From: Candidatus Pelagisphaera phototrophica | Lineage (GTDB): Bacteria; Verrucomicrobiota; Verrucomicrobiia; Opitutales; Opitutaceae | Length of the DNA: 64,000 nucleotides | Assembly: GCF_014529625.1 (NCBI RefSeq) | Contig: NZ_CP076039.1 | Coordinates: 3,162,001-3,226,000 of the forward strand | Direction: 5' to 3' | In this document: in pieces, positions 2,884 through 32,964 of the stretch | How the letters are laid out: every line of letters starts with the position of its first letter | How positions within the stretch are numbered: position 1 is the stretch's first letter | The notes under the pieces: model-generated | What the model was told of the DNA's origin: nothing | The model's database searches: none | What the model saw: only the letters and a program-made list of their open reading frames with translations | Translations under genes and position numbers: made by a program

Positions 2884-2899
2884 TGGCAGGCTTCCTGCT
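2884..2899 (+). promoter_or_regulatory. sigma-54-like promoter of the 2OG oxygenase gene
   Basis: TGGCAGG-CTTC-CTGCT has GG at 2885-2886 and GC at 2897-2898 with exactly 10 nt between. It differs from the sigma-54 consensus TGGCACG-N4-TTGCW at two positions. The predicted +1 is 2910, two bases before the ATG at 2912. It lies in the 51-nt gap after allantoinase. Confidence 0.72.
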
Positions 2900-2911
2900 G
2901 GCATTCTACCC

Positions 2912-3823
2912 ATGAATTCGCACATCCCAATTATCGATTTCAGCAGTATGCTTGGCGATTGCCTCACTGAACGCCAAGCTATCGCGGCCGAGGTAGATCG
3001 CAGTGCCAAGGAGGTCGGCTTCATGTATATAACCAACTGCGGTATCGCTCCTGAAACCGTATCGGCGGCCATGGAGACTGCCCGTCGCTTTTTCCAAAAA
3101 GAGCCTGCCGCCAAGAGTCTGTATCCATTCGACCAGGAGCTCAATTTCGGCTATCATGGCCTAGGCACAGAGGCTTTGGATCCAAACAAGCCGGCAGATC
3201 AGAAAGAAACCTTCACAATGCGCAACGTATTCAATCTTCAATCGCAAGAAAATCTCTGGCCGAGCCATCGCTTTCATCAGGTCGCGAGCGATTTTTTCGC
3301 TGACTGCCAACGTCTCGCCGATCGGCTGATGGGAGCCTTTGCGTTAGCTCTCGAGCTTCCGGAAGGCTATTTCACCAACAAGCATACCGGCATTCTGCAA
3401 ACGCTCCGGCTTCTCCACTATCCGCCCGCAAAAGTGGAATCCGCAGGCCAGCTGGGCGCCGGAGCCCACACCGACTACGGCACCCTCACGCTTCTTTTCC
3501 AAGACAAATCGGGCGGCCTCGAAGTTCAAGATTCGACAGGAAACTGGATCCCCGCCCCGCCTGTCGACAATGCCGTCGTCATAAACACAGGCGACCTGCT
3601 CGCTCGCTGGACCAACGACGTCTACCGTTCTACTCCGCACAGGGTGCAAGTACGTCCCGCAGACGCCGCCAACGGCCGTTTGTCTATCGCATTCTTCTCC
3701 GATCCGGATCCCGAAGTCCTCGTTGAAACCTTGCCTTCGTGCGTGTCGGAGGAAAGCCCCTCGAACTATCCGCCCATTACTGCCAAAGATCACATCCTGG
3801 AGAAAATCGCTGCCACCAACTAA
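2912..3823 (+). CDS. 2-oxoglutarate/Fe(II)-dependent oxygenase, isopenicillin N synthase-like
   Basis: A 303-residue member of the isopenicillin N synthase-like dioxygenases. The N-terminal DIOX_N part starts with IPIIDFSSM. The catalytic jelly roll shows AHTDYGTLTLLFQD (His and Asp iron ligands, near residues 188-190), NTGDLLARWTNDVYRSTPHRV (second His, near 243) and RLSIAFF (the RxS motif that binds 2-oxoglutarate). It is flanked by allantoinase and a purine deaminase, so a purine or ureide substrate is likely, but the substrate cannot be read from sequence. It belongs to a different fold family from the TauD-like fungal xanthine hydroxylase XanA. The start is fixed by the sigma-54 element 13 nt upstream. 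Confidence 0.85.
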   Translation: MNSHIPIIDFSSMLGDCLTERQAIAAEVDRSAKEVGFMYITNCGIAPETVSAAMETARRFFQKEPAAKSLYPFDQELNFGYHGLGTEALDPNKPADQKETFTMRNVFNLQSQENLWPSHRFHQVASDFFADCQRLADRLMGAFALALELPEGYFTNKHTGILQTLRLLHYPPAKVESAGQLGAGAHTDYGTLTLLFQDKSGGLEVQDSTGNWIPAPPVDNAVVINTGDLLARWTNDVYRSTPHRVQVRPADAANGRLSIAFFSDPDPEVLVETLPSCVSEESPSNYPPITAKDHILEKIAATN

Positions 3824-3833
3824 TCCATACACC

Positions 3834-4310
3834 GTGGACGAAGCCATTCAGATACGCCTCCTCTATGCGGCAAACGAAGTTGCCGAGGAAGCCATCGCAA
3901 ACGGGCATCACCCATTTGGGGCCATCCTCGTCGCTCCCGATTTCAAAACCATCCTTCTCCGCCAGGGAAACGTGGATAGCGTAAGACACGCGGAAACCGA
4001 ACTCGCCCGCCGATCCGCTCGAGAGTATTCACCTGAATACCTCTGGGACTGCTGCCTAGTCACTACGTTGGAACCATGCGCCATGTGCTCGGGAACCATC
4101 TATTGGGCGAATATCGGCTCGGTCCTCTACGGAACGCCTGAAGCCGACCTCAAATCGCTCACCGGTTCCGATCCACGGAATCCCACTATGGATCTGCCTT
4201 GTCGCGACGTCTTCGCGGCCGGGCAAAAAAAGGTCCGCGTATGGGGTCCCCTACCCGCAATGAAAGACGCCCTGCTCGCACCGCATCAGCGCTTCTGGAG
4301 CCAGACGTAG
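3834..4310 (+). CDS. guanine deaminase-like nucleoside/base deaminase
   Basis: A 158-residue zinc deaminase of the cytidine/deoxycytidylate deaminase superfamily. It shows HPFGAILV near the N-terminus, RHAETELARR (zinc His and catalytic Glu) and TLEPCAMCSGTIYWANIG (zinc PCxxC). The IYWAxI stretch after the cysteines resembles bacterial GuaD, which converts guanine to xanthine. The open frame extends into the previous gene, so I place the start at the GTG 11 nt after the oxygenase stop; no ATG fits. No separate promoter element is seen, so it should be co-transcribed with the 2OG oxygenase. It could instead be a broader nucleoside or tRNA-unrelated base deaminase. Confidence 0.78.
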   Translation: MDEAIQIRLLYAANEVAEEAIANGHHPFGAILVAPDFKTILLRQGNVDSVRHAETELARRSAREYSPEYLWDCCLVTTLEPCAMCSGTIYWANIGSVLYGTPEADLKSLTGSDPRNPTMDLPCRDVFAAGQKKVRVWGPLPAMKDALLAPHQRFWSQT

Positions 4311-4352
4311 AGCTAGGGAGCGGAGCAATGGTCGCTCTCCCCCCAACCAGGT

Positions 4353-5048
4353 CTACACGGTGCCCTTTTCCTCCGTCTCTTCCTCGATATCCCCTTTCGA
4401 CGTCCAGTGACCCGTCACCCAGTATACGACTAGATATACGATGGGCGTATCGATTACCGCCACCAGAAGCTTCATCAAATAAGATCCGATAATCAGCTTG
4501 GGCAGTACATCATTGGGTATGATTCCATAGAAAGCGATCGCGCAGAATATAGTTGTATCCAATAACTGGGAGCCAAACGTAGAAACATTATTGCGCAGCC
4601 AAAGGTTCTTCTCTCCCGTCCTCTTCTTCACCCACTCGAACACGTAGATATCCCAAAGTTGGGCGGATAACGTGGCCAACAGCGATCCGAGAATGATCCT
4701 CGGCCCACCCTGGAAGAGGGCGACATAGGCATCGTTTAGAAGCCAACCTTCCGCCGGAGGAGCTTGCACAGCCAAAAACAGGAATGCCGTGCAGACAATG
4801 TACACGGCAGTTCCCATGTAGACCATCATTCGCGCCCGTTTGGCCCCCCAAATCTCAGCCGTCGCGTCGGTGCAAGGAAAGGTGAAAGCATGGGCGAAGG
4901 ATCCGTAGCTGAATGCCAAGGTTCCTAGACCGAGCCAAGTGAGGTCTAATGGGACGAGCTTAACGGTGAGACATTGAAGCATGCCCCAAAAGCCCACATA
5001 CGACCCGAAAAGTATCAGAAACTTCAGTTCCTTCGGATCGTCAGGCAT
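4353..5048 (-). CDS. VUT-family transporter (YhhQ/QPTR, queuosine-precursor transporter type)
   Basis: A 231-residue polytopic membrane protein with about six hydrophobic segments. Family landmarks are present: FPCTDATAEIWGAKRAR near residue 55, a LSAQLWDIYVFEW segment near 125, and LWLRNNVSTFGSQLLDTTIF near 145. Known members import 7-deazaguanine precursors of queuosine. Here the ATG sits one base after the adenosine deaminase stop (TAA-C-ATG) and the pair shares one promoter, so an ordinary purine base or nucleoside is the more likely cargo (inference). The C-terminus is acidic (EEETEE). An alternative start at 5075 would overlap the previous gene. Confidence 0.86.
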   Translation of the reverse strand: MPDDPKELKFLILFGSYVGFWGMLQCLTVKLVPLDLTWLGLGTLAFSYGSFAHAFTFPCTDATAEIWGAKRARMMVYMGTAVYIVCTAFLFLAVQAPPAEGWLLNDAYVALFQGGPRIILGSLLATLSAQLWDIYVFEWVKKRTGEKNLWLRNNVSTFGSQLLDTTIFCAIAFYGIIPNDVLPKLIIGSYLMKLLVAVIDTPIVYLVVYWVTGHWTSKGDIEEETEEKGTV

Positions 5049-5049
5049 G

Positions 5050-6066
5050 TTACTTGCTGAAATCCCTTTCTTCAATTATCGCTGTCAGCTCCGCGATACA
5101 TTCGTCTTTCTTGGGAGATTCCCAATCAGCAACGAGAAAACCGTTCAAAGCGATTCGAGCCAATTCTTGTTCGCTGAAACCAATATCCTGATACAACGCA
5201 TAATATTCTTCACTCAAATAATTTCCGAACATCAGGGTATCGTCCGAATTAATCGTACATGTGACCCCTGCATCGAACAGCTGCCGAATGGGATGGTCGG
5301 ACATTGTCTTGATTCCCTCCACCGCCAACTTGAGATTGCTGATTGGACAAACATCTAAGGCAATACCTTCCTCAGCCAGGAAAGACACTAGCTCAGGATC
5401 CTCCACCGATCGGACCCCGTGCTGTATCCTGCTCGTTCCCAATTCGTCAATACAACGCTTCACGAAACTGGCGGGCATGAACTCTCCGGCATGGGCTTTG
5501 AGGAATTTCCCAGCCGCCCCTGCCGCTTTCCAGACTTCGGCAGTCCAAGGCTCTAGCGGATAATCCTCAGGTCCATGAAGATCGATTCCCCAAAGCTGAT
5601 CCCAAGACAGGCAATCATCGATAATTTCCTTTCCTATGCCTTCATAGTCGTTGTGCCGCATGCCCATAACGACTCGAACTTCCAATCCTTCAGGAGCTGC
5701 TGACAGGACAGCATCTACCAATTCCGGTCCGGTCATCCCCCCCGAATAGAGCGAACCCACGTGAAAACTCGTTTCAACGTACTTGCAATTCTGGGAGGCG
5801 CAGTCGGCTAGCACTTTCTTCGCGCAATCGTGATAGGCCTCTGCACTTGTGAATACTCCTTCGCAAAAGTCCACATAGTAATCCATGAACTGGTAGAAGC
5901 TCTCGTAGCGAAATTCATCCGCCCACATGGGGGGGCCGTTCGGATACTTGCCCGGGAACGCCCGTTCGATCATCTCGAAAGGGCAAGAACCCTCTAAATG
6001 AATATGGGTTTCGGTTTTCGGTAGGCTCTGGACGAATTTCGACAGTTCTGGAGAAGGATCGTACAT
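5050..6066 (-). CDS. adenosine/adenine deaminase, cytoplasmic
   Basis: A 338-residue member of the adenosine deaminase superfamily without a signal peptide. Motifs: TETHIHLEGSC (HxH zinc ligands), FLKAHAGEFM (third His and catalytic Glu), IQHGVRS, CPISNLKLAV and TCTINSDDTLMFG (Asp pair). The family includes adenosine deaminase, adenine deaminase of the AAH1 type and others, so adenosine versus adenine is undecided. I choose the ATG at 6066 because the sigma-54 element at 6078-6093 puts +1 at 6067; earlier ATGs at 6075 and 6096 lie upstream of that transcript. It is followed 1 nt later by the VUT transporter gene. Confidence 0.85.
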   Translation of the reverse strand: MYDPSPELSKFVQSLPKTETHIHLEGSCPFEMIERAFPGKYPNGPPMWADEFRYESFYQFMDYYVDFCEGVFTSAEAYHDCAKKVLADCASQNCKYVETSFHVGSLYSGGMTGPELVDAVLSAAPEGLEVRVVMGMRHNDYEGIGKEIIDDCLSWDQLWGIDLHGPEDYPLEPWTAEVWKAAGAAGKFLKAHAGEFMPASFVKRCIDELGTSRIQHGVRSVEDPELVSFLAEEGIALDVCPISNLKLAVEGIKTMSDHPIRQLFDAGVTCTINSDDTLMFGNYLSEEYYALYQDIGFSEQELARIALNGFLVADWESPKKDECIAELTAIIEERDFSK

Positions 6067-6077
6067 ATCTTCCATAA

Positions 6078-6093
6078 AGCAGAAACCGAGCCG
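6078..6093 (-). promoter_or_regulatory. sigma-54-like promoter of the deaminase-VUT operon
   Basis: On the minus strand CGGCTCG-GTTT-CTGCT with GG-N10-GC spacing. The -12 cytosine is at 6079, so +1 is 6067, one base before the ATG at 6066. Three mismatches to consensus; its weight comes from the same distance to the start codon as its neighbours. A second GG-N10-GC further upstream (TGGCCGG-AGGA-AAGCT) has a poorer -12 box. Confidence 0.5.
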
Positions 6094-6178
6094 CATTCAC
6101 CCGTCAGAGCTCTTTTCCTCGGCAGCTTTCCTCCGGCCAGCCCAGATTAACGACAAGGTGAATTTCCCGTCGCTCCAG

Positions 6179-6242: not shown

Positions 6243-7298
6243 CTAAGCAGTCATTTCGCCACGAAGCCCATTGCCAAACATCCAGTTTCTCAGAGCGAGG
6301 GAAGCTTTGTCCGCTTTAGCATGAACTTCCGCAGATATGTCCAACGGTATTTCCTCGGGCTTTTGCAGCTCTACTATCGCCCGGTCTTCATAAATGATCT
6401 TCTTCTCCCATTCACGTAGTTGGTCTATAGGGACGTCGTGATCAAAATTGCGGTGAAACACGGCGATCAGCTGCGATTTGCGGGAGGACACCGGCGCTAT
6501 GTTAAAATGAATGAGGTGCTCGCGCTCCTCTGGATAACTGATCACCGTTCGTGTGGAGAAGGGCAAAAACAAGGTTCTATGCATGTGCCGATCCAACTCG
6601 GAAGCGTCGGCGATAGGCGAGTCGTCTGGATTGGTCGCCTTGTAGTCGAATGCCATCGTCATCGTATAGTTGTCTTGAGAAAATTCGTATTCCGCTCCCA
6701 TGGTGGCGCTTCCCTCTTGGCCAAAGCTGCTCCGGTGAACGAAGGAAAAATGGGCGTTGTCGATGAAGTTCTCTATCAGACGTCCGGCTGAACAGTCCCA
6801 AATCTCTGGGCCTAGCGTAAAGCGACGATAGGTGCTGTCCGACTCTTCAGGTTCCCAAACTGGAATTCGGTTAGCGGGTTTGCCGCTTAGGCATACCCAG
6901 ATTATACCATACCGCTCCTCGTGCAAAACCGTTTGCAGGCGCAGCTTGCCCGGAATCTTCCATTCTGGATGGCTTGGTACCAGGACGCACTTGCCCGTAG
7001 CATCAAATCGATAGCCATGATAGGGGCAAACAATGCAGTCATCACGAACCCATCCGTTGGACAACGGAGCGCCGCGGTGAATACACAGATCTTTGGAAAC
7101 CACGTATCCAAGACCTAGGCGGGCAATCACTAAATCGGTATCGAGTAGTCGGGCCTTTAAAGGCTGAGCCCCAATATCGGATTCCAAGGCGATGGGATAC
7201 CAAAAGTTAGACAGGATATCCCAATCATTTCGACTAAAGGAGCATTCCCTGGGATATTCGAGGGTAGCACAATCTTGGGTGGGCTCATCTGCTTTCAC
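6243..7298 (-). CDS. Rieske non-heme iron oxygenase, HpxD/NdmA-like
   Basis: A 351-residue oxygenase alpha subunit. The Rieske site is CIH at residues 72-74 and CPYH at 91-94; the mononuclear iron site is ENFIDNAHFSFVH (Asp180, His183, His188). The overall layout (LSNFWYP, LLDTDLVIARLG, CVLVPSHPEWKIP, HEERYGIIWVCL) recalls the caffeine N-demethylases NdmA/NdmB and the HpxD oxygenase of Klebsiella hypoxanthine use, all about 350 residues. In a purine island that lacks a visible xanthine dehydrogenase, ring oxidation of hypoxanthine/xanthine or N-demethylation of methylated purines are the leading ideas (inference). No reductase partner lies beside it. The start is a GTG, supported by the promoter position. 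Confidence 0.85.
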   Translation of the reverse strand: MKADEPTQDCATLEYPRECSFSRNDWDILSNFWYPIALESDIGAQPLKARLLDTDLVIARLGLGYVVSKDLCIHRGAPLSNGWVRDDCIVCPYHGYRFDATGKCVLVPSHPEWKIPGKLRLQTVLHEERYGIIWVCLSGKPANRIPVWEPEESDSTYRRFTLGPEIWDCSAGRLIENFIDNAHFSFVHRSSFGQEGSATMGAEYEFSQDNYTMTMAFDYKATNPDDSPIADASELDRHMHRTLFLPFSTRTVISYPEEREHLIHFNIAPVSSRKSQLIAVFHRNFDHDVPIDQLREWEKKIIYEDRAIVELQKPEEIPLDISAEVHAKADKASLALRNWMFGNGLRGEMTA

Positions 7299-7310: not shown

Positions 7311-7326
7311 AGCACGATCCGTTCCA
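7311..7326 (-). promoter_or_regulatory. sigma-54-like promoter of the Rieske oxygenase gene
   Basis: On the minus strand TGGAACG-GATC-GTGCT, two mismatches to consensus, GG-N10-GC. The -12 cytosine at 7312 gives +1 at 7300, two bases before the GTG start at 7298. The agreement supports the GTG as the real start. Confidence 0.7.
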
Positions 7327-7368: not shown

Positions 7369-7384
7369 TGGCGCGATTACGGCT
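7369..7384 (+). promoter_or_regulatory. sigma-54-like promoter of the SSS symporter gene
   Basis: TGGCGCG-ATTA-CGGCT with GG-N10-GC; the -24 box has one mismatch and the -12 box is weaker. The -12 cytosine at 7383 gives +1 at 7395, two bases before the ATG at 7397. It is divergent from the Rieske promoter 42 nt away. Confidence 0.6.
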
Positions 7385-7396
7385 TAAGAATGCTCC

Positions 7397-8827
7397 ATGA
7401 CCGACTTCCAAATCTGGGCATCCCTCTTTCTACTCCTATACTTGGGCTGGCTGCTTTATCTAACCGTTAAGGCTTTCAAAAGGCCCACGAAAGAGCTGGG
7501 AGACTTTTTCCTGGCCGGCAAGACGGTCGGCTTCATCCCCTCCCTTCTCACGTTCTGGGCCACTTACTTTAGCGCAGCTGGGCTCATTGGAGCGGCAGGC
7601 TACTACTACATTCACGGAGTGGGCAATTTCTACTTCGCTGTCCTCGGATACCTGATTCTAGCCATCGTGGCCGGTACCCTGGGCAAACGCTTATGGCGAC
7701 TTTCGCGGAAGTATCCCGATACTCGATCGCCGATTCAGCTCTACCTCAAGGCATTCGACTCTCCCCTCCTCGAACTTCTATTTATCGCGGTCACCTTAGC
7801 CTGCATGGTGCCTTACCTCGCGGCTCAGATTACCGGATTCGCTCGCATGCTCGAAAGCTCGATAGGGCTGCCCTACATCCTTACCGCCGCGATCGCCCTC
7901 GTTATTATCTATATATATTCCGAGTCCGGCGGGCTCGCCAACATCATTAAAACGGATATTCTTCAGTCGACGCTCACCATCGTGGGTTGTATCTCGGTAG
8001 CGATTGTATTCGTAGGTCTGTTCTGGGCTTTCGACGGGTCGCAATTTGTGGCGGATGTCGATGCCGCCACCGATCCCTCTCTCTGGGGCTTGCCTGGGCC
8101 TAATGGCCTTTATTCCGCAACGAACATAGTCGGACTGGCTCTTCTCATTTCGCTCGGGGCGACACCGATGGCCCACAATGCCCAACGGTTTATGATCGTC
8201 AAAGAGGAGCGCTATCTGACCGCTATGATGTACATCTTCCCATTCATGGGCCTTATGCTGACCATGATCGCCGGAACGCTTGGATTAGGAGGGGCAGCAA
8301 TCTTCCCTGGCCTTTCAAGCGGAGACCAGATTATCGGCGAAGTGATGGCTGCGGTCCCCGCGGTATTGGGAGCATTGACCCTTGTGGGAGTCATCTGCGC
8401 CACAATGTCGACGGCCGACTCTATTCTCCTGAGCATAGGCTTTATCGCAAGCGAGCATTGGTACCGGAAGAATAAGAACGTATCCGTTCGTGGCATACTT
8501 AAACTCAATCGATGGTTCACTCTTTCCATAGCGATCTTTGCCTTCGCGGCCAGCGTTAAGCCCGAACTCGTTGCGGAACTGGCTTTCAACGCCTTCGGTG
8601 GGATGCTGCAACTGGCCCCCACCATGTTCGCGGGACTCTATTTGCCCTCGATTGGAGCTCGATGGGCAGCGGCTAGCAGCGTCTCGGGACTGGCGGTCTT
8701 GCTCGCGGCTAAATTCGGTTGGCTCGCTCCGCTGGTTCCGAACGACTTTCCCGGCTATCTAGCAGGATTCATAGTCGCTTGCGGGCTAGTGGCGATTCCC
8801 GCGGTATTCAAATCCGGTAACCATTAG
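7397..8827 (+). CDS. sodium:solute symporter (SSS family)
   Basis: A 476-residue inner-membrane transporter with about 13 hydrophobic segments. The N-terminus has the SSS hallmark DFFLAGKTVGFIPSLLTFWATYFSAAGLIGAAGYYY, an inserted cytoplasmic RKYPDTRSP stretch, and the later MSTADSILLSIGFIASEHWYRK core motif around residue 340. Members carry sugars, amino acids, pantothenate or other organic solutes with Na+. The cargo is not readable; sharing the sigma-54 element with the purine genes suggests a purine, ureide or released sugar. It stands alone in its transcription unit, divergent from the Rieske gene. Confidence 0.87.
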   Translation: MTDFQIWASLFLLLYLGWLLYLTVKAFKRPTKELGDFFLAGKTVGFIPSLLTFWATYFSAAGLIGAAGYYYIHGVGNFYFAVLGYLILAIVAGTLGKRLWRLSRKYPDTRSPIQLYLKAFDSPLLELLFIAVTLACMVPYLAAQITGFARMLESSIGLPYILTAAIALVIIYIYSESGGLANIIKTDILQSTLTIVGCISVAIVFVGLFWAFDGSQFVADVDAATDPSLWGLPGPNGLYSATNIVGLALLISLGATPMAHNAQRFMIVKEERYLTAMMYIFPFMGLMLTMIAGTLGLGGAAIFPGLSSGDQIIGEVMAAVPAVLGALTLVGVICATMSTADSILLSIGFIASEHWYRKNKNVSVRGILKLNRWFTLSIAIFAFAASVKPELVAELAFNAFGGMLQLAPTMFAGLYLPSIGARWAAASSVSGLAVLLAAKFGWLAPLVPNDFPGYLAGFIVACGLVAIPAVFKSGNH

Positions 8828-8903: not shown

Positions 8904-8919
8904 CGGCGCCATTCATGCT
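8904..8919 (+). promoter_or_regulatory. sigma-54-like promoter of the secreted hydrolase gene
   Basis: CGGCGCC-ATTC-ATGCT, GG-N10-GC. The -12 cytosine at 8918 gives +1 at 8930, one base before the ATG at 8931. The -12 box NTGCT matches the other sites. Confidence 0.6.
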
Positions 8920-8930: not shown

Positions 8931-9941
8931 ATGTTGTCAGTCGATTTCAGATCCGTTTTGATTATCTTGGCGATCGGCTTTTTGAAACCAGCCTTCTCAG
9001 TCGAGCCGACCATCGAAAACGTTATCTACGGCATGGATCATGGCGCCGCCTTGCTGATGGATGTCTACCAGCCCAAATCGCCGATCGGGGCCGGGGTCGT
9101 CTTTATCATGGGTACGGGTTTCACCGCGTATGGGGCATATGACGACCTACCCTTAAAGGAGCTCGATCTTTGGCTCATCGAAAACAATGTCTTCAGTGAC
9201 TTTTATGGGGAAACGGAACAGCCGTTCGTTCCCCTCTTGGAAGCGGGCTTCACTGTGTTTTCCATCAATCATCGCCTAGGGCCGAAAAACCGTTTCCAGC
9301 GTCAGATAGCCGATTGTCAGCGAGCCATTCAGTTCATCCGGCATCATGCATCCGACTACGGCATTCATTCGAATTGGGTCGCCTCCATGGGCCATTCTTC
9401 GGGTGCGACGATGGCGACGTTCCTCGGCGTGGGCGACAACATCGCCAATCCGTCCGCCCTGGATCCAGTGAGCCGCCAATCCAGCCGCGCCCAAGCCGTA
9501 ATCGCCGCTGCCGGCATACACGATCTATTGGCAGCTCTGGAGAAATCGCCCCGCAGCGCGTCGATGATGCAAAGCCTGACGGGTCGAGCGCTCACCTATC
9601 AGCCTCCTGGGCACCCGATTTTCGAGACCTATAAGCACGCTTCGACCACAAGCTACATCGACCCAGCCGACTCCCCCGTTTTTATCATTCATGGCGATGC
9701 AGACCCCGCAGTCGATCTATCACAATCCAAGATTCTACAAGCTACATTAAGCACCGCGGGCGTTCCCCATAAGCTTTTGGTTCTTCCAGGGGCCAACCAT
9801 GCTGAAATCGGGACGATGACCGATCCGCTTCCATTCGAGCAAGCCGCCGGCTGGCTAATGGATCAGCTCAAGGATTTGGATTGGAAAACGGATGTCGATT
9901 CCCTGCCGTTAACCTCGAAGTCACCGCCCGATCTCCCGTAA
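8931..9941 (+). CDS. secreted alpha/beta hydrolase (esterase/lipase-like)
   Basis: A 336-residue protein with an N-terminal signal peptide (hydrophobic VLIILAIGFLKPAFS). The alpha/beta hydrolase triad is visible: MGHSSGATMA (nucleophile Ser in GxSxG, near residue 155), HGDADPAV (Asp, near 250) and GANHAEI (His, near 285). HRLGP with a downstream DCQRAIQFIRHHASDYGI matches the acetyl-esterase/BD-FAE type. The substrate is unknown; a periplasmic role in releasing an acyl group from a purine conjugate is only a guess from the company it keeps. The ATG at 8931 is favoured by the promoter over an upstream alternative start at 8925. Confidence 0.8.
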   Translation: MLSVDFRSVLIILAIGFLKPAFSVEPTIENVIYGMDHGAALLMDVYQPKSPIGAGVVFIMGTGFTAYGAYDDLPLKELDLWLIENNVFSDFYGETEQPFVPLLEAGFTVFSINHRLGPKNRFQRQIADCQRAIQFIRHHASDYGIHSNWVASMGHSSGATMATFLGVGDNIANPSALDPVSRQSSRAQAVIAAAGIHDLLAALEKSPRSASMMQSLTGRALTYQPPGHPIFETYKHASTTSYIDPADSPVFIIHGDADPAVDLSQSKILQATLSTAGVPHKLLVLPGANHAEIGTMTDPLPFEQAAGWLMDQLKDLDWKTDVDSLPLTSKSPPDLP

Positions 9942-9952: not shown

Positions 9953-9968
9953 TGGTGCACGAATTGCT
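9953..9968 (+). promoter_or_regulatory. sigma-54-like promoter of the NAT/NCS2 permease gene
   Basis: TGGTGCA-CGAA-TTGCT: the -12 box is a perfect match and GG-N10-GC spacing is exact. The -12 cytosine at 9967 gives +1 at 9979, one base before the ATG at 9980. Confidence 0.68.
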
Positions 9969-9979: not shown

Positions 9980-11308
9980 ATGCGAGAATCACAGTCTTCA
10001 ACCCGAGCCGAGCCCCATCTGCTCTACCCGCATGACGCCACTATGCCGCCAGGCAAAGCGGCCATGGCGGCCCTCCAGCAAACGATCGCCATGTTCGTGG
10101 GCTGTATCACCCCGGCCCTTATCTTCTCAAGCGTCGTCGGCATCGACCCGGATACTAAATCCTACCTCATTTCCATATGCCTCCTCGCATCGGGTCTCGG
10201 CACGTTGTTGCAAGCCAAACGCTTCGGAATCGTCGGCTCGGGGCTCCTCTCTATCAACGGCACCAGTTTCGCTTACGTCGACCTTCTCCTTAGAGCGGGC
10301 AACGAAGGCGGACTCCCCCTCGCCTGCGGCATGGCCCTCGCCGCTGTGCCGCTTCAATTCGTCCTCGCGTTCTCGCTGCCCGCCCTCCGGTCGATCATAT
10401 CGCCGCTCGTCGCCGGCATCGTTGTTCTTGCCATCGGCATTGATCTCATTCCCGTCTCTGGCTACTACATTGCAAAAGGCGTGGGCGAAACAACGACGTG
10501 GACAATCAGCACTAGCGTCGCTGCAACCGTCATCGGGCTTCTCATCGCCAGCCAAATCTCCAAGCGAAAAACGATACGTATGTACGCACCCATTATCGCA
10601 ATCGCTGTCGGCTACGCGCTCTCCTCCTTTTTTGGAATCATCCATTGGCCCGATTGGAAAAGCAACAACTGGATCATGATTCCGACTCCTCTCGCCTACG
10701 GCTTGGCGTTCAAATGGGAACTGCTTATCCCTTTCGCCGTCATCTACATCGTCTCCTCCATTGAGGCTATCGGCGACTTGTCAGCCACGGCCAGTTTCTC
10801 AGGAATGAAGACCCGCGGTATAGAATTCTGGCAACGAATTCGAGGCGGCATTCTCTCCGATGCCATCACCAGTGCCTTCGCCTGCGTCTTCAACGGATTC
10901 CCAACCGCCACGTTTTCCCAAAACAACGGCGTAATACAACTTACCGGCGTCGGCAGTCGCCAAGTCGGCTTATACGTATCCGGAATCCTCATAGTCGCCG
11001 CACTTCTCCCACAGACCGGATTCCTATTCAGCGCGATGCCAAACCCAGTCCTCGGCGGCGTGACGCTTGTACTCTTCGGTATGATCGCCAGTGCAGGAGT
11101 GCGCATGATCCTGCAAGAGCCCCTTGATAGCGCGAACATGCTCGTCATAGCCGTCAGCCTAGGATTAGCCTTCAGCATCCCCTCTCAGGAGCATTTCGTG
11201 AAAGAGCTCCCAGAGTTTCTAGCCGCTATTCTCTCTTCCAAGGTAGCCACTGCCGGCCTGACGGCAATCGCGATGAACTGCTTGACGATTAAAACGATGA
11301 AATCGTAA
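9980..11308 (+). CDS. xanthine/uracil permease, NAT (NCS2) family
   Basis: A 442-residue transporter with about 12-14 membrane segments. The nucleobase-ascorbate transporter signature is clear: FSQNNGVIQLTGVGSR (Q-N-x-G-x4-T-G near residue 315), together with INGTSFAYVDLLL and SSIEAIGDLSATASFSG, the segment carrying the substrate-binding Glu. Close relatives take up xanthine, urate or uracil with H+ or Na+. The sequence does not distinguish these. The ATG at 9980 is set by the promoter; the open frame extends upstream into the hydrolase gene. The SBF-like transporter follows after 101 nt and has no promoter element of its own. Confidence 0.87.
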   Translation: MRESQSSTRAEPHLLYPHDATMPPGKAAMAALQQTIAMFVGCITPALIFSSVVGIDPDTKSYLISICLLASGLGTLLQAKRFGIVGSGLLSINGTSFAYVDLLLRAGNEGGLPLACGMALAAVPLQFVLAFSLPALRSIISPLVAGIVVLAIGIDLIPVSGYYIAKGVGETTTWTISTSVAATVIGLLIASQISKRKTIRMYAPIIAIAVGYALSSFFGIIHWPDWKSNNWIMIPTPLAYGLAFKWELLIPFAVIYIVSSIEAIGDLSATASFSGMKTRGIEFWQRIRGGILSDAITSAFACVFNGFPTATFSQNNGVIQLTGVGSRQVGLYVSGILIVAALLPQTGFLFSAMPNPVLGGVTLVLFGMIASAGVRMILQEPLDSANMLVIAVSLGLAFSIPSQEHFVKELPEFLAAILSSKVATAGLTAIAMNCLTIKTMKS

Positions 11309-15219: not shown

Positions 15220-15235
15220 TGCATTTTCCGTGCCA
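15220..15235 (-). promoter_or_regulatory. sigma-54-like promoter of the TonB-dependent receptor gene
   Basis: On the minus strand TGGCACG-GAAA-ATGCA: the -24 box is perfect and the -12 box has one mismatch. The -12 cytosine at 15221 gives +1 at 15209, a 24-nt leader before the ATG at 15185. This is the best consensus match in the set and the only one with a leader this long. Confidence 0.75.
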
Positions 15236-20048: not shown

Positions 20049-20064
20049 AGCAGCATCGGTGCCG
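20049..20064 (-). promoter_or_regulatory. sigma-54-like promoter of the AzgA-like permease operon
   Basis: On the minus strand CGGCACC-GATG-CTGCT, GG-N10-GC. The -12 cytosine at 20050 gives +1 at 20038, one base before the ATG at 20037. A 10-T run at about 20081-20090 lies just upstream. Confidence 0.65.
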
Positions 20065-20114: not shown

Positions 20115-20130
20115 TGGCACGGCTTGTGCC
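20115..20130 (+). promoter_or_regulatory. sigma-54-like promoter of the NUP gene
   Basis: TGGCACG-GCTT-GTGCC: perfect -24 box and exact GG-N10-GC. The -12 cytosine at 20129 gives +1 at 20141, one base before the ATG at 20142. Divergent from the permease promoter 50 nt away. Confidence 0.68.
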
Positions 20131-20141: not shown

Positions 20142-22181
20142 ATGCTTAAAATTCATCTGATTCTAGCGACGATTCTAATGGCGGCGAGCGCGCCCGCTTT
20201 CGCAGAGAAGCCTATACCCATAAAAGTCGTTGTACTTGCAATGTACGAAATGGGCGAAATTACGGGAGACCGCCCGGGAGAGCTGCAATTCTGGGCCGAG
20301 CGGGAGAGTCTAGACATCGTCCTGCCTTTTCCCATGGGCAGAACGGATCTGCTCATGAGCGAAGAAGGCCTTATGGTTGCCCTGACGGGAGGAGGCGTCA
20401 CGCACGCGGCCACGACAATCACCGCTCTCGGCATGGACCCGCGTTTCGACTTTTCCAAAACCTACTGGATCATCGCAGGGATAGCGGGAGCCGACCCTGA
20501 AGATGCCTCTCTCGGCACTGCGGCTTGGGCGAAGTGGGTCGTCGATGGCGATCTTCTCTACGAACTGGACGCTCGAGAAATTCCCGAGGAATGGCCCTAC
20601 GGCATGATACCGCTTGGCGGCTACGAGCCCAATCAGCTCGATACCGGTTGGACGGTAGACAACATCACGTTCGAATTGAACGAAGGGCTCGTCGAATGGG
20701 CCTATCAACTGACCAAAGATATGCCCGTTGACGACACCCCGGCTTTGAAGGAATTCCGGGAGCAGTTCGTCGGTTACCCCAACGCCATGACTCCCCCGCG
20801 GGTAATCATCGGGGATTCGTTGAGCTCTTCCACCTACTTTCATGGCGAGAAGCTCAATCAATGGGCCAATGACTGGATGAAACTGCACACCGACGGCCAA
20901 GCGGAATTTGTCATGTCCAACATGGAAGACAGCGGCACGCTTACCGCTCTCCGACGACTCGCCCAAGCAGGCAAAACCGATTTCGAGCGCGTTCTAGTCC
21001 TGAGAACGGCAAGCAATTATTCCATGCAGCCTAAGGACAAGGCCGCCTCTTGGAGTGCCACCGCTCCCTATCCAGAAGACGGTCGCCCTGCTCTAGAAGC
21101 GGCTTACAAACTCGGCAGCGTCGTCGCCCACCAACTGATCGAAGACTGGAACGAAACGTCTTATCGCATTCCAAAGGCCAAAGCGAGCAAGACCAAGATT
21201 AAAGCGGTCGTCGTCGCCATGTTCGAACTCGGCGAAGACGAGGGAGACCAGCCCGCCGAGTTCCAAAACTGGGTCGAACGCTACCCGCTCGATCAGAAGA
21301 TCTCCTTTCCCCAGGGCTATCGAGATCTTCGCTACAACGATGAAGATGGCGTGCTAGGAATCGTCACTGGAATTGGAACCTACCGTTCCGCCGCGTCTAT
21401 CATGGCGCTGGGAATGGATCCGCGCTTCGACCTGAGCGAAGCCTATTGGCTCGTTGCGGGAATCGCCGGCGTCGACCCCAACGACATGTCGCTGGGGTCA
21501 GCAGCTTGGGCCGAGTGGCTGATAGATGGAGACCTCTCTCATGAAATTGACATTCGGGAGGCCCCCGACGACTGGAAATACGGATACACGCCCATTCGGC
21601 ACCCCGAATTTCCCTGGATAGAGCCTCTTCCCGAGGACAAAGGAGGGCTCCTCTACAAGCTAGATTCCGATCTAGTCGAATGGGCCTACCAGTTAACCAA
21701 AGACGTGAAAATCAAGGATAACGATGCCATGAAAATCCTACGAAAGAAATACATCGGCTATCCAAATGCTCAAAAACCGCCATTCGTGCTCAAAGGAGAT
21801 CAACTGGCAGCGATGACTTTTTGGCATGGGGAAATAATGAATAATTGGGCCAATGATTGGGTCGACTACTGGACCGAAGGAGAAGGGGAATTCGTAACAT
21901 CCGCCATGGAAGAGACCGGCACCCTCCAGTCCCTCACCTTCCTAGAAAACGCCGGGAAGGTCGATACGCAACGCGTTCTCGTCCTCCGGACCGGAAGCAA
22001 TTTTTCCATGCCCCCGCCCGGCGTCAACGCGGCCGTCAATCTAAGCGGCGAAAAGAAGGGCGGATATTCCGCTTTCATTCCCTCCTTGGAAGCCGCCTAC
22101 GACGTTGGCAGCAAAGCGGTACGCGAAATTGTTGCCAAGTGGGACACCTACCGAACCGAGCTTCCAAAGCCGGCAGAATAG
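20142..22181 (+). CDS. tandem-duplicated purine nucleoside permease (NUP) / nucleoside phosphorylase-like periplasmic protein
   Basis: A 679-residue protein with a signal peptide (MLKIHLILATILMAASAPAFA) followed by two copies of the NUP domain, about 320 residues each. The copies start with IKVVVLAMYEMGE (near residue 25) and IKAVVVAMFELGE (near 355), and each repeats ALGMDPRFD(F/L)S, YW(I/L)(I/V)AGIAG, EWAYQLTKD, a SAMEETGTL-like stretch and RVLVLRT(A/G)SN. NUP was named for yeast purine nucleoside uptake, but the sequence has no membrane helices beyond the signal and resembles the nucleoside phosphorylase fold. A periplasmic enzyme splitting or binding nucleosides is therefore more likely than a permease. 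Known members normally have one domain. It has its own promoter. Confidence 0.82.
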   Translation: MLKIHLILATILMAASAPAFAEKPIPIKVVVLAMYEMGEITGDRPGELQFWAERESLDIVLPFPMGRTDLLMSEEGLMVALTGGGVTHAATTITALGMDPRFDFSKTYWIIAGIAGADPEDASLGTAAWAKWVVDGDLLYELDAREIPEEWPYGMIPLGGYEPNQLDTGWTVDNITFELNEGLVEWAYQLTKDMPVDDTPALKEFREQFVGYPNAMTPPRVIIGDSLSSSTYFHGEKLNQWANDWMKLHTDGQAEFVMSNMEDSGTLTALRRLAQAGKTDFERVLVLRTASNYSMQPKDKAASWSATAPYPEDGRPALEAAYKLGSVVAHQLIEDWNETSYRIPKAKASKTKIKAVVVAMFELGEDEGDQPAEFQNWVERYPLDQKISFPQGYRDLRYNDEDGVLGIVTGIGTYRSAASIMALGMDPRFDLSEAYWLVAGIAGVDPNDMSLGSAAWAEWLIDGDLSHEIDIREAPDDWKYGYTPIRHPEFPWIEPLPEDKGGLLYKLDSDLVEWAYQLTKDVKIKDNDAMKILRKKYIGYPNAQKPPFVLKGDQLAAMTFWHGEIMNNWANDWVDYWTEGEGEFVTSAMEETGTLQSLTFLENAGKVDTQRVLVLRTGSNFSMPPPGVNAAVNLSGEKKGGYSAFIPSLEAAYDVGSKAVREIVAKWDTYRTELPKPAE

Positions 22182-23562: not shown

Positions 23563-23578
23563 AGCATAGAACGTGCCG
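23563..23578 (-). promoter_or_regulatory. sigma-54-like promoter of the P450 gene
   Basis: On the minus strand CGGCACG-TTCT-ATGCT, two mismatches, GG-N10-GC. The -12 cytosine at 23564 gives +1 at 23552, two bases before the ATG at 23550. Confidence 0.7.
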
Positions 23579-23660: not shown

Positions 23661-23676
23661 TGGCCCGATTCTTGCG
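23661..23676 (+). promoter_or_regulatory. sigma-54-like promoter of the PhoD-amidase operon
   Basis: TGGCCCG-ATTC-TTGCG, two mismatches, GG-N10-GC. The -12 cytosine at 23675 gives +1 at 23687 and an 8-nt leader before the ATG at 23695. It excludes the longer open-frame start at 23632. Confidence 0.68.
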
Positions 23677-23694: not shown

Positions 23695-25263
23695 ATGGCA
23701 AAGCTAAATATATTTTCCCTCCTTCGGATTACCCTCATTATAGTATCCCTGGGCGGACTCGCCTCCCGCGCTGCTCCAAAACTGATTAACGGCCCGATGC
23801 CCGCGGCAAGTGCCATCAATGAAGTACTCGTTTGGGCCCAAACGTCCGAGCCGGCTACCGTTCACATCGAATATTGGCCGGAAGATGGCGACCCAAATCA
23901 GTCCTTCGTCTCGGCCCCCGTGGCAACCTCGCTGGAAACCGCAGGGGTAGCCAAGTTACGAGTTACGGAAGGAATTGAGCCAGGCCAACGCTATCGCTAC
24001 CAGGTCTTTGTGGACGGCGTCCCTCAGGAATTGTATTTTCGACAGGGGCACAGAGCCGGAGAAGAAATTCCGATGACTTTCCAGGCGAAACCCCGCTGGC
24101 GTTTCGTCCCCGAAGAGGAGTCCTCTCACAGCATATTCGATTTTCGCATCGCCGCAGGAAGTTGTGCCTACATCAACGAAGAAGGCTACGATCGCGAAGG
24201 CGGAACACCCTACGGAGATGCCTATCGCATCTTCGAGTCGATTTACGAGACGCAGCCAGATCTGATGCTTTGGCTCGGGGACGCGGTGTACTACCGGGAA
24301 AACGACTTCGAGAATCGCTCCGGCATGATCCACCGTTGGACGCATGACCGCTCGATCCCGGAGCTGCGGGCCCTCTTAACAAGTGCCCACCACTTCGCGG
24401 TATGGGACGACCATGACTACGGGCCAAACGACATCGGCAGCTCCTATCCTCAAAAGAGCGTCGCCAAGGAAATCTTCGATCTATTTTGGGGAAATCCAAG
24501 TTCTGGGATGCCAGAAACACCCGGAATCTTTACCTATTTTAACTGGGGGGACGCGAACTTCTACTTACTGGACAATCGAAGTTATCTCACCACCTCCGTC
24601 TCCAAGCCGGAAGCCTTCGGCAAGCCCAAAAGCATGCTGGGACGAGATCAAGCGGACTGGCTTATTGAACATCTGGCCTGGGCCCAAAGCCAAATGTCGG
24701 ACGATGGCAAAAGCTACCCCGCCCGCTTCAATATCATTTGCGTCGGCAATCAAGTCTTGAGCGAAGACAGCAACCCCCATCACTATCGGAACTTCCCGGA
24801 TGAATGGAATTACCTGATCGACCGAATCGTCGAGGAGGGAATCGATGGCGTGATCTTTCTAACTGGCGATGTACACCATGGGGAAGTCAACCGAATGGAA
24901 TACATCGGCCGAGGAAATCCTGGAGTTCCTGGAAAAGCCGGCAAACCAGGCGAGACCTACCTCTTTCACGAAATCACTTCATCTCCCTTGACCGCTGGAG
25001 CCTGGAGCGGTCCGGCAAAAAACGGCGCCCGCTACGATATATTCGACGAAGCGGAAGTAGACCGCGTCGGTCAACGCAACTTCGTCACGCTCGATTTCAA
25101 AGGTCCCCTCGACAATCGCCGATTAGAAATTCGCTATTTCGATTCCGATGGCAATTTGCTGAATCGGAAAGAAGGCGGAAGGATCGACGAAATAACCGAT
25201 CGCTCCGTTCTATTCGCCAACGAGCTTAGATCGCCTAGGCGGGCGAACGGGCCAACCGATTGA
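23695..25263 (+). CDS. secreted PhoD-like alkaline phosphatase/phosphodiesterase
   Basis: A 522-residue protein with a signal peptide (LLRITLIIVSLGGLASRA), an N-terminal fibronectin-like PhoD_N part, and a metallophosphatase core. Core motifs are AAGSCAY, LWLGDAVYYRE near residue 205, VWDDHDYGPNDIGSS near 245, YLLDNRSY, and LTGDVHHGEVNRM near 395. PhoD enzymes are Ca/Fe-dependent phosphomonoesterases and phosphodiesterases. Inside this island its probable job is taking phosphate off nucleotides or opening nucleic acid in the periplasm (inference). The amidase gene overlaps or closely follows the stop. Confidence 0.85.
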   Translation: MAKLNIFSLLRITLIIVSLGGLASRAAPKLINGPMPAASAINEVLVWAQTSEPATVHIEYWPEDGDPNQSFVSAPVATSLETAGVAKLRVTEGIEPGQRYRYQVFVDGVPQELYFRQGHRAGEEIPMTFQAKPRWRFVPEEESSHSIFDFRIAAGSCAYINEEGYDREGGTPYGDAYRIFESIYETQPDLMLWLGDAVYYRENDFENRSGMIHRWTHDRSIPELRALLTSAHHFAVWDDHDYGPNDIGSSYPQKSVAKEIFDLFWGNPSSGMPETPGIFTYFNWGDANFYLLDNRSYLTTSVSKPEAFGKPKSMLGRDQADWLIEHLAWAQSQMSDDGKSYPARFNIICVGNQVLSEDSNPHHYRNFPDEWNYLIDRIVEEGIDGVIFLTGDVHHGEVNRMEYIGRGNPGVPGKAGKPGETYLFHEITSSPLTAGAWSGPAKNGARYDIFDEAEVDRVGQRNFVTLDFKGPLDNRRLEIRYFDSDGNLLNRKEGGRIDEITDRSVLFANELRSPRRANGPTD

Positions 25264-26643: not shown

Positions 26644-27573
26644 TCAATCGAAAATAGCGTCGGGTAAATATCCTGTAATCGTCGTCGTAGGAGTATTCAC
26701 CAACTGGCTAACTTTCAAGTCCAAGACAACAGAGCAGGTCACATAGGCTTGCTGGCGCGTCAGGCCAACGCGCTCCTGCAAGTATCGGATCGCTCTTCTC
26801 ACTACATTTTTGCACAACTCTCGAGGGTCCTCGCCAGATTCGATGAACGCATGAATCGGCTTCGCACTATAGCGGGGCGATACCAATTCTCCCGGAGTAA
26901 TCAAGTACGGAGATTCTAACGGAGCGTCTTTAATTAGCTCCACTCTCAAAGTCACCTTCATCGGAGCTTCCATCCCATTGATGCTCACTTCCCCATCGCC
27001 TTGAGCCGCATGGCAGTCGCCGGCACACAATCCTGCTCCTGGAACGAAAACCGGCAAATGCAGCGTCGATCCGGCCACCAAGTGCTTCACATCCATGTTG
27101 CCGCCGAAGGCGCCAGGAGGGCGAGTGCGAAACTCGCCCAGAGCTTCTCGTTGCACGCCGATGATGCCGCAAAATGGATTCAGGTCCAAAGTGAGGCCTG
27201 GCATGGAGCACGTTTGCGTCTCACCCAATTCCCAAATCTGCAGAAAGACTTCGTCGAACTCGGTATCCAGCAAGCCCAAACCCGGAATGATGCTCGTCCA
27301 TGCCCAATGTTCGTGCTCGTAATCGATGATATCTATCTTGAGGCGATCGCCCTTGCCCGCTCCAGCTACCTCAATCGGCCCAGTGAGACCATGAACCCTC
27401 ATCTTGTCGGCTTTTTCCCAATCGGTCGCGGTCGACTCCTTCGATAGCTGCCCGTCGCTGGCGTCATTCATTTCAATGGTCACCGTATCGCCAGACTGGA
27501 TGCTGAGCCTTGGCTCGTAACTGCGGTCCCAGCGGTTGTACGTAATCGATTTGTCTAGATAGTGGTCAGCCAT
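26644..27573 (-). CDS. acetamidase/formamidase family protein (FmdA/AmdA)
   Basis: A 309-residue member of the FmdA/AmdA family, which hydrolyses formamide, acetamide or related small amides. It shows HGLTGPIEVAGAGKGDRL near residue 70, RPPGAFGGNMDVKHLVAGSTLHLPVF near 150, and PGAGLCAGDCHAAQGDGEVS near 185, the conserved metal/active-site region. It is the last gene on the minus strand after the TonB operon (about 80 nt after the TPR gene) and has no sigma-54 element, so it is probably read through from that operon. It may remove a small amide made in purine ring breakdown (inference). A TTG at 27603 is an alternative start. Confidence 0.85.
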   Translation of the reverse strand: MADHYLDKSITYNRWDRSYEPRLSIQSGDTVTIEMNDASDGQLSKESTATDWEKADKMRVHGLTGPIEVAGAGKGDRLKIDIIDYEHEHWAWTSIIPGLGLLDTEFDEVFLQIWELGETQTCSMPGLTLDLNPFCGIIGVQREALGEFRTRPPGAFGGNMDVKHLVAGSTLHLPVFVPGAGLCAGDCHAAQGDGEVSINGMEAPMKVTLRVELIKDAPLESPYLITPGELVSPRYSAKPIHAFIESGEDPRELCKNVVRRAIRYLQERVGLTRQQAYVTCSVVLDLKVSQLVNTPTTTITGYLPDAIFD

Positions 27574-27656
27574 GTGCGGTATCAGTTTCCGACCTTCGCC
27601 CAATTTCAGAACGGCAAGGTCGCTCGAGGCTTAAATCAAGCAGTCGGTCGAATTCG

Positions 27657-30134: not shown

Positions 30135-30742
30135 AGCGATTCGGGCACCCCTTTCTTTTCGACGCGCTTTAGGGTCATGATCTCTACCTTCGTAAAGAAG
30201 GCATCCATCTGACTGCACTTCCTTTTGGCGATGCTTAAGAGAACGTATCCAGGTATCGCTAGCACGAGGCCGGTCTGGGTTGTTATCAAGGCCTCGGAAA
30301 TCCCCCCCGCAACCATATCTACCGTATTGCCTGCGGAACTGGATGCCAAGCCCCCGAACGTGCTCAACATACCTGTCACGGTCCCCAAAAGTCCCGTCAG
30401 CGGGGCGGTTCCAATCAAAATGGACGCGAAAAGCAGTCTCCCATTCAAACGGCCGATATGCACGTTTCTAATTTCCGCCAAGCGGTCCCTTACGTCTTGC
30501 ATCGAGCGGACTTCGTGCTGGGCGTATTGGAGAATATCGCCGACCGCTCCTTTCGCCTCGCTCGGCGAATCGATCCAGTGACCCCATTGATCAGGATCAC
30601 TGTCAGAATAGTTATTGGCGTTCAAGTAGACCAGAATCTCGTATAGCGTGTAGTAGATAAGTGCCCCAAGAATCGCCAAAGGAATCATGAGAGCCCCTCC
30701 AGAGCTCCAAATACTGACGACCTCTTCTACGAATCCTGTCAT
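30131..30742 (-). CDS. exbB: ExbB-type proton channel protein
   Basis: A 203-residue MotA/TolQ/ExbB protein with three membrane helices. The first is [25 protein letters not shown]. The TM2-TM3 core reads [24 protein letters not shown] followed by [21 protein letters not shown], the proton-channel signature with the conserved Thr/Glu. It begins 24 nt after the TtpC-like gene and overlaps exbD. It is the shorter of two ExbB-type proteins in the operon and pairs with ExbD. Confidence 0.92.
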
Positions 30743-30766
30743 TGCCTCAATTTCGAAGTGCTCAAC

Positions 30767-32143: not shown

Positions 32144-32162
32144 AAAAACACCAACCCTCACG

Positions 32163-32936
32163 TTACTTAATCTTTACTGGGAGCGTGACAAACTCCGCCT
32201 GAACTTCCCCCGCGTACACCGCAAACAGCGAGGAAATCTCTTTTCCACTTTCCGGAGTCTCCTCCCAAACCCAACCCTCGTCCGAAGGAACGCCAATCCC
32301 CACGTACGTGCCTTCTCGATTCATGAAAAAGGCCCCCGCGAGGCCAAAATACAGAATGTCTACTTCCGACTGCCCTGAATCCAGTTTCTGGATATCCGAA
32401 ACGAGTTGCACTCCACTATTGAATTTGTCCGCTTGACTTAAAATCGCGATCACGCTTTGCAGGCGCTGGGAAACCGACAACCTAAAATCCTCCCCTTCTC
32501 TTGGAATTCGAGCGAAGAGCATGGAAACCTCCTCTTGCAAGGGAATGGGAAACTGCTTGTGCAGCGCGAGCACCCGCCCTTCGACGCTTTCAATCTTACT
32601 GCCGAGAACCTCGACTGCGGCCTTGTATTCGTCGCTCTCTTCTATAAGTCCCTTGCGCTTCTTATCCGACTCCGACAATCCCTCCTCGGCCATTTTAATC
32701 TTCTCGGTCAAACTTTCCTTTTCCGTTTCCAGCAAAGCGATCATATCCTTGATGATCACTCGGCCCGCTTCCCAGTCCGCCCTCTCCTCTGAAATGGTTT
32801 TTTCCACATCAACCCATTCACTCACTAGATTTCTAGCTTCGTCCAGGGTTTGGGCATTTAGAGCAGCGACTTGAATAAATCCGAATGAAAAAGCGGCTTT
32901 CAAGAGCCGCGACAACAGAGACCTATCGATATTCAC
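32163..32936 (-). CDS. DUF3450 periplasmic coiled-coil protein heading the TonB operon
   Basis: A 257-residue secreted protein: signal peptide (LLKAAFSFGFIQVAALNAQ), a coiled coil over about residues 35-115 (heptads with many Glu/Lys), then an alpha/beta C-terminal part with LYFGLAGAFFMNREGTYVGIG and GWVWEE near 205, typical of DUF3450. This family is a regular first gene of TtpC-type TonB operons. Its exact job is not known; it is likely part of the periplasmic energising complex. The start is a GTG at 32936, supported by a sigma-54 element 13 nt upstream. Confidence 0.85.
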   Translation of the reverse strand: MNIDRSLLSRLLKAAFSFGFIQVAALNAQTLDEARNLVSEWVDVEKTISEERADWEAGRVIIKDMIALLETEKESLTEKIKMAEEGLSESDKKRKGLIEESDEYKAAVEVLGSKIESVEGRVLALHKQFPIPLQEEVSMLFARIPREGEDFRLSVSQRLQSVIAILSQADKFNSGVQLVSDIQKLDSGQSEVDILYFGLAGAFFMNREGTYVGIGVPSDEGWVWEETPESGKEISSLFAVYAGEVQAEFVTLPVKIK

Positions 32937-32948
32937 AAAGAACCTCTT

Positions 32949-32964
32949 AGCGGGAAATGCGCCA
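32949..32964 (-). promoter_or_regulatory. sigma-54-like promoter of the TonB operon
   Basis: On the minus strand TGGCGCA-TTTC-CCGCT, GG-N10-GC. The -12 cytosine at 32950 gives +1 at 32938, two bases before the GTG at 32936. It ties the TonB machine to the purine genes. Confidence 0.62.

Follow-up and report, generated by a model that had tools for sequence, protein, structure and literature searches.

Promoters read by sigma-54 carry a GG and a GC ten nucleotides apart, the −24/−12 boxes, within the consensus TGGCACG-N4-TTGCW. The C of the GC lies at −12, so that a start codon separated from it by d bases is preceded by a leader of d−11 nucleotides, and d = 11 places the start codon at +1. 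Here we describe elements of this kind (GG-N10-GC, given as 16-mers) in a purine island of Candidatus Pelagisphaera phototrophica. The window is the whole 64,000-nucleotide stretch that was analysed (G000:C1:3162001-3226000), for which the original prediction had proposed one sigma-54-like regulon of twelve sites with almost leaderless messages. The observation that the elements abut start codons is confirmed and extends beyond those twelve; its interpretation as a sigma-54 regulon of the purine island is partly supported.

Several described systems come close to this one. Purine use is under sigma-54 control, with DioR, in C. difficile (PMC11448449), RpoN1 of Ralstonia is required for xanthine as a nitrogen source (PMC4676750), and in E. 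coli the RpoN holoenzyme binds the ygeV/ygeW region (PMC8743547). The present locus resembles these cases in that RpoN is tied to purine uptake or breakdown, and it differs from them, which belong to other phyla and in whose consulted passages no start-abutting layout was found, in that the layout extends over a pathway island of 56 kb and over a second one. In proteobacteria, the sigma-54 sites of PEP-CTERM genes lie 23–221 nt from the start codon, with a mean of 71 (PMC1569441, Haft et al. 2006). As in the PEP-CTERM/PrsR-PrsK regulon, a sigma-54 site and an upstream palindrome precede sorting-signal genes in this genome, which also encodes PrsR; unlike in that regulon, the distance is 14 nt (five TIGR03778 genes), 13 nt (two genes with VPDTG-ended products) or 41 nt (one PF18205 gene). 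Leaders under 10 nt are described in Leptospira (PMC5243855), and Flavobacterium makes little or no use of Shine-Dalgarno sequences (PMC9723704); the consulted passages of these papers do not link leaderless starts to sigma-54 as a general rule. No title or abstract opening that joins leaderless and sigma-54 genes as a rule was found in the open literature, to which the search was confined, subscription papers being outside its scope. What is new is the geometry and its conservation; the sigma factor itself is already known for purine use in other phyla.

All twelve predicted 16-mers are present in the window at the coordinates and on the strands listed in Table 1, and their distances agree with the predicted leaders of 1–2 nt at ten sites, and of 8 and 24 nt before the PhoD and TonB-dependent receptor genes, respectively; ten of the elements thus lie at 12–13 nt. 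As in known −24/−12 promoters, GG and GC are spaced by 10 nt (12 of 12 window sites), the remaining bases follow the consensus, and rpoN and NtrC-family activators are encoded in the genome. Unlike in usual sigma-54 promoters, the −12 box is found 11–15 nt from the start codon, with a predicted leader of 0–4 nt. We consider the elements to be probably sigma-54 promoters that abut start codons. The set is not confined to the interval from 2.9 to 33 kb originally given for it: elements continue for ~23 kb to the left of the window and recur elsewhere in the genome, and the whole island spans ~56 kb; of its 17 elements, 15 are at d 11–15.

A coincidence, with a frequent motif and a start codon chosen to fit, can practically be dismissed, even though the minimal GG-N10-GC is as frequent in the window as one per 216 positions on each strand, rather than the one per 256 first estimated, and several start codons were allowed per gene. 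In the final count, genes of at least 100 aa from a simple ORF caller were scored for [TC]GG-Nk-[not G]GC[TAC] followed at d 11–15 by ATG or GTG, and compared with 602 genes sampled from 38 stretches of 20 kb elsewhere in the genome. With k = 10, 13 of 45 island genes match as against 11 of the 602 (Fisher p=2e-10), which bears out the claim that the fixed distance is not accidental, and a consensus score of at least 9/12 is reached by only 2 of those 11. Spacings of 8, 9, 11 and 12, given equal freedom, match 0/45 island genes each and 4, 2, 6 and 5 of the 602, respectively. None of 57 genes flanking the island matches at k = 10; the sulfatase side of the window gave no such gene, in line with the statement that sulfatase heads are without the element. 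The rule misses the near sites 7369 (GGC before T) and 9953 (ATG deep in the longest frame), and the PhoD and TonB sites, outside d 11–15, are not counted by it. An earlier count with a strict rule gave 5/45 island genes against 2/355 outside at k = 5, an excess that, as site inspection suggests, is caused by a second GG inside TGGCACGG. At the eight consensus positions outside GG/GC the 17 island sites, partly picked by consensus, match at 5.53 (p=2e-8). The relatives and the second island described below lie outside the original choice of sites.

The element is conserved in related genomes, as the original prediction had asked to be checked. Relatives of the purine nucleoside permease (NUP) are found in 41 of 273 genomes of the order. 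Eight NUP loci were collected, four of which (L072 to L075, including Verrucomicrobiae DG1235 and Puniceicoccaceae K14) share more of the island; the regions read were one each from 18 NUP-bearing genomes and two from DG1235, with L074, L075 and L077 added. Under a stricter rule, the element stands at d 11–14 before 14 of 90 island homologues, as against 3 of the 263 remaining genes in these loci, and other spacings match 0–2 of the 90; the most frequent d is 12. These counts rest on a simple longest-ORF caller, some of whose "genes" in GC-rich relatives are antisense frames and which missed the NUP of G126 in L129; such errors lower the counts for relatives. At the eight consensus positions unused in the selection, the relatives' sites match at a mean of 4.38, against 2.26 in the background (p=9e-7), and the element-bearing loci range from 42 to 67% GC. 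Distances are kept gene by gene: d=12 for the permease (element 20049) in DG1235 and K14, 12 for the NUP (20115) in L072 and DG1235, 13 for the P450 (23563) in L072 and L073, and 19 in L072 and 21 in L073 for PhoD (23661), while the DUF3450 head in DG1235 has TGGCGCAAATCTGGCT with GTG at d=11. The TonB-receptor homologue in DG1235 and K14 has no comparable site upstream. Among 29 NUP loci submitted for an element check, 26 yielded a row, and in 10 of these, from families f1, f3, f8 and f11, an element stands ahead of a plausible N-terminus (one begins GGG and was read by eye; another has d=10 to GTG or 16 to ATG). The remaining 16 rows include several antisense frames, from genomes rich in GC, and some without a close element show mid-gene matches only. 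Purine-gene homologues with the element occur in several families of the order, and other homologues are without it. The K14 locus has ~1 kb of repeated palindromes in the permease-NUP gap (L075:7681-8800), by eye a putative REP-associated transposase remnant, and its NUP-side element is degenerate, GG replacing GC.

The start codons at the close position look real. The N-terminus of the permease is MLEKLFGLKAANTTV here, MLDRWFKLKAAGVTV in DG1235 and MLDRLFQLKANSTTV in K14; each starts 12 nt past the GC, and the three proteins are conserved from residue 2 (MLEKLFGLKA / MLDRWFKLKA / MLDRLFQLKA). NUP genes of several genera have a signal-peptide-like sequence that starts at the close codon, for instance MRSSALLFALTC and MVFPRLLASLLF. 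Both features make a start further downstream unlikely, and with it the alternative that these are true sigma-54 promoters followed by ordinary leaders and translation from a downstream in-frame codon. For that alternative it can be said that the start codons are predicted and that longer distances exist (19 and 35 nt in the window, 69 at amtB, 41 at one VPDSG-CTERM gene); in the relatives' homologues, however, d clusters at 11–15, with single matches at 7, 9 and 10 but nothing at 4–6 or 8, and this is the edge expected if a start codon cannot precede +1. We give it a small probability only.

The contrast drawn earlier with sigma-54 genes that have ribosome binding sites holds for leader length, which still differs (69 nt from site to ATG at amtB-glnK of this genome, 71 nt on average for proteobacterial PEP-CTERM sites), and is weaker than claimed for the sites themselves, because 19 sampled stretches, with 145 gene heads and 62 operon-internal genes, show no Shine-Dalgarno peak either. 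The lack of ribosome binding sites seems general in this genome, and close sigma-54 elements do not. Verrucomicrobia in which Shine-Dalgarno sequences are scarce have been reported (PMC10783764). Leaderless starts in the genome's sample do not look general: no −10-like TAnnnT peak was seen near −12, the leaderless position, in the sampled heads, and a sigma-70 origin of leaderless starts was rejected.

The proposal of one regulon bounded by the purine island did not hold, as the same geometry is found in a second island, of nucleobase type, at VPDSG-CTERM genes and at dnaK. A pattern search of the genome gave 16 matches, against 6 for the reversed control, and three of them, at 2.48 Mb, fall in the second island. 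Its element-bearing heads are those of a FAD-binding protein, an NMT1/THI5-type binding protein followed by cytosine deaminase (NF005759, over cut-off), DUF2165, an amidohydrolase, a creatininase and a RidA-family protein, and the island also has an ABC transporter; 6 of its 11 genes match (Fisher p=7e-8 against the sample, for a locus chosen by a related pattern). In the CTERM-type cassette, a palindrome ACCCTGAT-N6-ATCAGGGT is followed by the element, exactly 14 poorly conserved nucleotides between TGC and ATG in all seven copies, and a gene that matches TIGR03778 (VPDSG-CTERM) over cut-off in five of the seven; the other two frames encode 151 aa without match or tail and 45 aa without tail. 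Two more proteins, with a VPDTG-type tail and no NCBIfam model, have an element at d=13. The dnaK element agrees with 11 of 12 consensus positions, and upstream of it is an inverted repeat, TGTCACA-N12-TGTGACA; sigma-54 control of an almost leaderless dnaK message would be out of the ordinary. At amtB beside a PII-like gene (amtB-glnK), a sigma-54-like site, TGGCATGCGAGTTGCT, lies 69 nt before the ATG, and a second amtB (L223) has weaker, distant matches only. Across 70 genomes of the order, the pattern TGGCACG-N5-TGC-N{6,36}-ATG was found at no fewer than 131 places outside this genome and at least 7 inside, nested second matches removed; among the matches listed, distances of 12–14 form the fullest bin (22), against 15, 16 and 18 for 6–8, 9–11 and 15–17, but the shortest match was taken, which favours nearer start codons, and the outcome is not used as support.

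The genome has one rpoN match, as the promoter interpretation predicts. The protein contains the DNA-binding domain and an intact RpoN box, ARRTVAKYRE. Among 44 genomes searched, 41 have rpoN, and the remaining three are fragmented assemblies, 75–90% complete. The elements might instead be operators of another regulator that overlap the start region and merely resemble −24/−12 boxes. This reading could draw on the want of a linked enhancer-binding protein and of an upstream activator site, and on element 20115, itself a short inverted repeat (GGCAC-N5-GTGCC). We regard it as improbable, given that the conserved bases beyond GG/GC follow the sigma-54 consensus in loci of such different GC content, and that VPDSG-CTERM genes share the geometry in a genome with PrsR, the proteobacterial PEP-CTERM genes being predicted sigma-54/PrsR targets (PMC1569441).

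With the elements read as sigma-54 promoters, an activator is called for, and none of the genome's five strong enhancer-binding proteins is encoded in the island, where the original prediction had suggested looking for one. They are PrsR (TIGR02915, over cut-off; genome 359632), an NtrC-like protein (genome 3389820-3391355), an AtoC-like protein beside a histidine kinase, one near a FliD-like gene and one with a receiver that looks degenerate by eye. It is possible, though we would put it somewhat below an even chance, that the NtrC-like protein is the activator and that the islands form a nitrogen-limitation rather than a purine-specific regulon, a reading compatible with sigma-54 promoters at the start codons. 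The second island encodes nucleobase/creatininase-type catabolism, the site at amtB-glnK is strong, as an Ntr regulon would have it, and the Ralstonia requirement for RpoN1 concerns xanthine as a nitrogen source. The protein scores best of the five against ntrC, at 482.8 bits, but stays below the curated cut-off of 558.6; moreover, G223 (85% complete) has four purine elements, yet its two enhancer-binding proteins resemble the 607-kb type and the AtoC-like 2369-kb type, and no common activator site was found upstream. The 607-kb type was rejected as a universal regulator: it has a 70% relative in G223, but only a 44% best match in the element-bearing DG1235. Around the activator beside the FliD-like gene, the sigma-54 sites scoring at least 9 include no near-leaderless set. 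An NtrC-like gene 5 kb from NUP in G002 was judged a coincidence, its tested neighbours (helicase, tRNA-synthetase-domain, PIN-domain and FGE-sulfatase-domain proteins, oxidoreductase) not being purine genes. In G078, an enhancer-binding protein (L161:2426-3946) is encoded ~5 kb from a NUP gene, with a Pfam match that begins at profile position 21; partial matches of this type were seen in several genomes of the order.

From the computed element, spacing, conservation, start codons and rpoN, we infer that RpoN-polymerase would be held on the elements in a closed complex, to be opened by an enhancer-binding protein. Transcription would begin at the start codon or 1–4 nt ahead, and the mRNA would be translated leaderless or nearly so, in a host apparently not reliant on Shine-Dalgarno pairing. 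The layout would serve nitrogen-scavenging sets (the purine and nucleobase/creatininase islands) together with VPDSG-CTERM genes and dnaK, and the activator may be one of the response-regulator-type enhancer-binding proteins encoded elsewhere in the genome.

A number of points weigh against this interpretation. Unlike usual sigma-54 systems, the cluster has no activator gene (the five strong proteins are all full-length matches), and the elements of the three divergent window pairs are 42–82 nt apart (42 nt between 7311 and 7369), so that an activator site would have far less space than usual. Two motif searches found no common activator site upstream of the purine elements: no dyad of the 50,127 counted over 13 merged upstream stretches was significant (best tail 2.7e-5), and a palindromic Gibbs search of 13 upstream sequences scored as controls at widths 16, 18 and 20. 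GTG starts occur in 2 of the 10 close-spaced window genes (Rieske and DUF3450) and in three of four in G223, and the mapped leaderless starts of S. meliloti are all AUG (PMC3616915). Sigma-54-like sites are not always close, as amtB and the PF18205 VPDSG-CTERM gene (41 nt) illustrate. The NUP gene is kept with no close element in the rows of f4 (1), f5 (4), f9 (1) and 3/4 of f8, and DG1235 lacks a close element at several gene heads. A sequence-only model of 14 sites (R1) recovered only 3 of its training sites in the genome, and its 3 matches there and 3 in a search of 12 sources were all training sites; it was dropped as too weak. Finally, the predicted transcript starts depend on the usual distance of 12 nt between −12 and +1.

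Window units include, by Pfam, a 2OG-Fe(II) oxygenase, adenosine deaminase-family proteins, a Rieske oxygenase, an SSF symporter, xanthine/uracil permeases, a TonB-receptor plug domain, adenine deaminase, the double-domain NUP, P450, PhoD, amidase and formamidase; left of the window are nucleoside phosphorylase-family genes, an adenosine deaminase, an XDH row, a urate oxidase domain fused to cytochrome c, a class-V aminotransferase, amidohydrolases and a cupin. The DUF3450 gene heads the row DUF3450-ExbB-ExbB-ExbD-TonB-TPR. The claim that all twelve unit heads carry a site stands if same-strand genes behind gaps are taken as operon members; no site scoring at least 8 was found ahead of the SBF transporter (at 11410, behind a gap of 101 nt) or of the formamidase (26644-27603, behind a gap of 53 nt). 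The M20-family and amidohydrolase genes at the left edge of the window are presumably co-transcribed with a row that starts with element TGGCGCCGTTATAGCT (genome 3150077, d=14), across a 156-nt gap before 204. The window NUP protein has 679 aa and two NUP stretches, and most NUP matches in the order are single-domain frames of ~350–380 aa. Two frames, L023:2123-3709 and 3806-5458, have no Pfam match and are permease-like by eye only.

Table 1. Elements and associated genes (window coordinates unless marked genome or L; d, bases separating the start codon from the C of GC).
Feature	Sequence	Position	Strand	Start codon	d	Gene or remark
Window element	TGGCAGGCTTCCTGCT	2884..2899	+	ATG at 2912	13	2OG-Fe(II) oxygenase, 2912-3823
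Window element	CGGCTCGGTTTCTGCT	6078..6093	-	ATG at 6066	12	Adenosine deaminase-family
Window element	TGGAACGGATCGTGCT	7311..7326	-	GTG	13	Rieske oxygenase, 6243-7298
Window element	TGGCGCGATTACGGCT	7369..7384	+	ATG	13	Sodium:solute symporter, 7397-8827
Window element	CGGCGCCATTCATGCT	8904..8919	+	ATG at 8931	12	Alpha/beta hydrolase
Window element	TGGTGCACGAATTGCT	9953..9968	+	ATG at 9980	12	Xanthine/uracil-type permease
Window element	TGGCACGGAAAATGCA	15220..15235	-	ATG at 15185	35	TonB-dependent receptor; predicted leader 24 nt
Window element	CGGCACCGATGCTGCT	20049..20064	-	ATG at 20037	12	Xanthine/uracil-type permease
Window element	TGGCACGGCTTGTGCC	20115..20130	+	ATG	12	Double-domain purine nucleoside permease (NUP), 20142-22181
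Window element	CGGCACGTTCTATGCT	23563..23578	-	ATG at 23550	13	Cytochrome P450
Window element	TGGCCCGATTCTTGCG	23661..23676	+	ATG at 23695	19	PhoD-like phosphatase
Window element	TGGCGCATTTCCCGCT	32949..32964	-	GTG	13	DUF3450, 32163-32936
Left-of-window elements		genome 3139146, 3145739, 3145779 (weak), 3149471, 3150077				
M20-family and amidohydrolase genes		204..2860	+			End of same-strand row starting left of window
Second island		L220, genome 2475248-2485558			11-14	Element at six gene heads
CTERM-type cassette, seven copies		L059-L063, L066, L067			14	Found by pattern
Second CTERM-promoter type		L052:3310; L235:13727			13 (twice)	
dnaK	TGGTACGGGCTTTGCT	L241:5491-7440, genome 3305491-3307440	-	ATG	12	NF001413, 984.9 bits, cut-off 648

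Genes with leaderless messages and genes under sigma-54 are usually treated apart. If the reading of the elements as promoters is true, this naturally occurring regulon would supply leaderless translation from an enhancer-gated polymerase, in a phylum for which few promoter data exist. The signature YGG-N10-GCT, with a start codon 10–14 nt on, could be used in related genomes both to predict operons for nitrogen scavenging and to correct start codons. We suggest tentatively, as a view with somewhat less than an even chance, that in this order of Verrucomicrobiota sigma-54 promoter and start codon have evolved as one fused module with leaderless messages as the rule, which may extend over nitrogen-scavenging islands, VPDSG-CTERM surface proteins and dnaK and would tie starvation-gated transcription to leaderless initiation.

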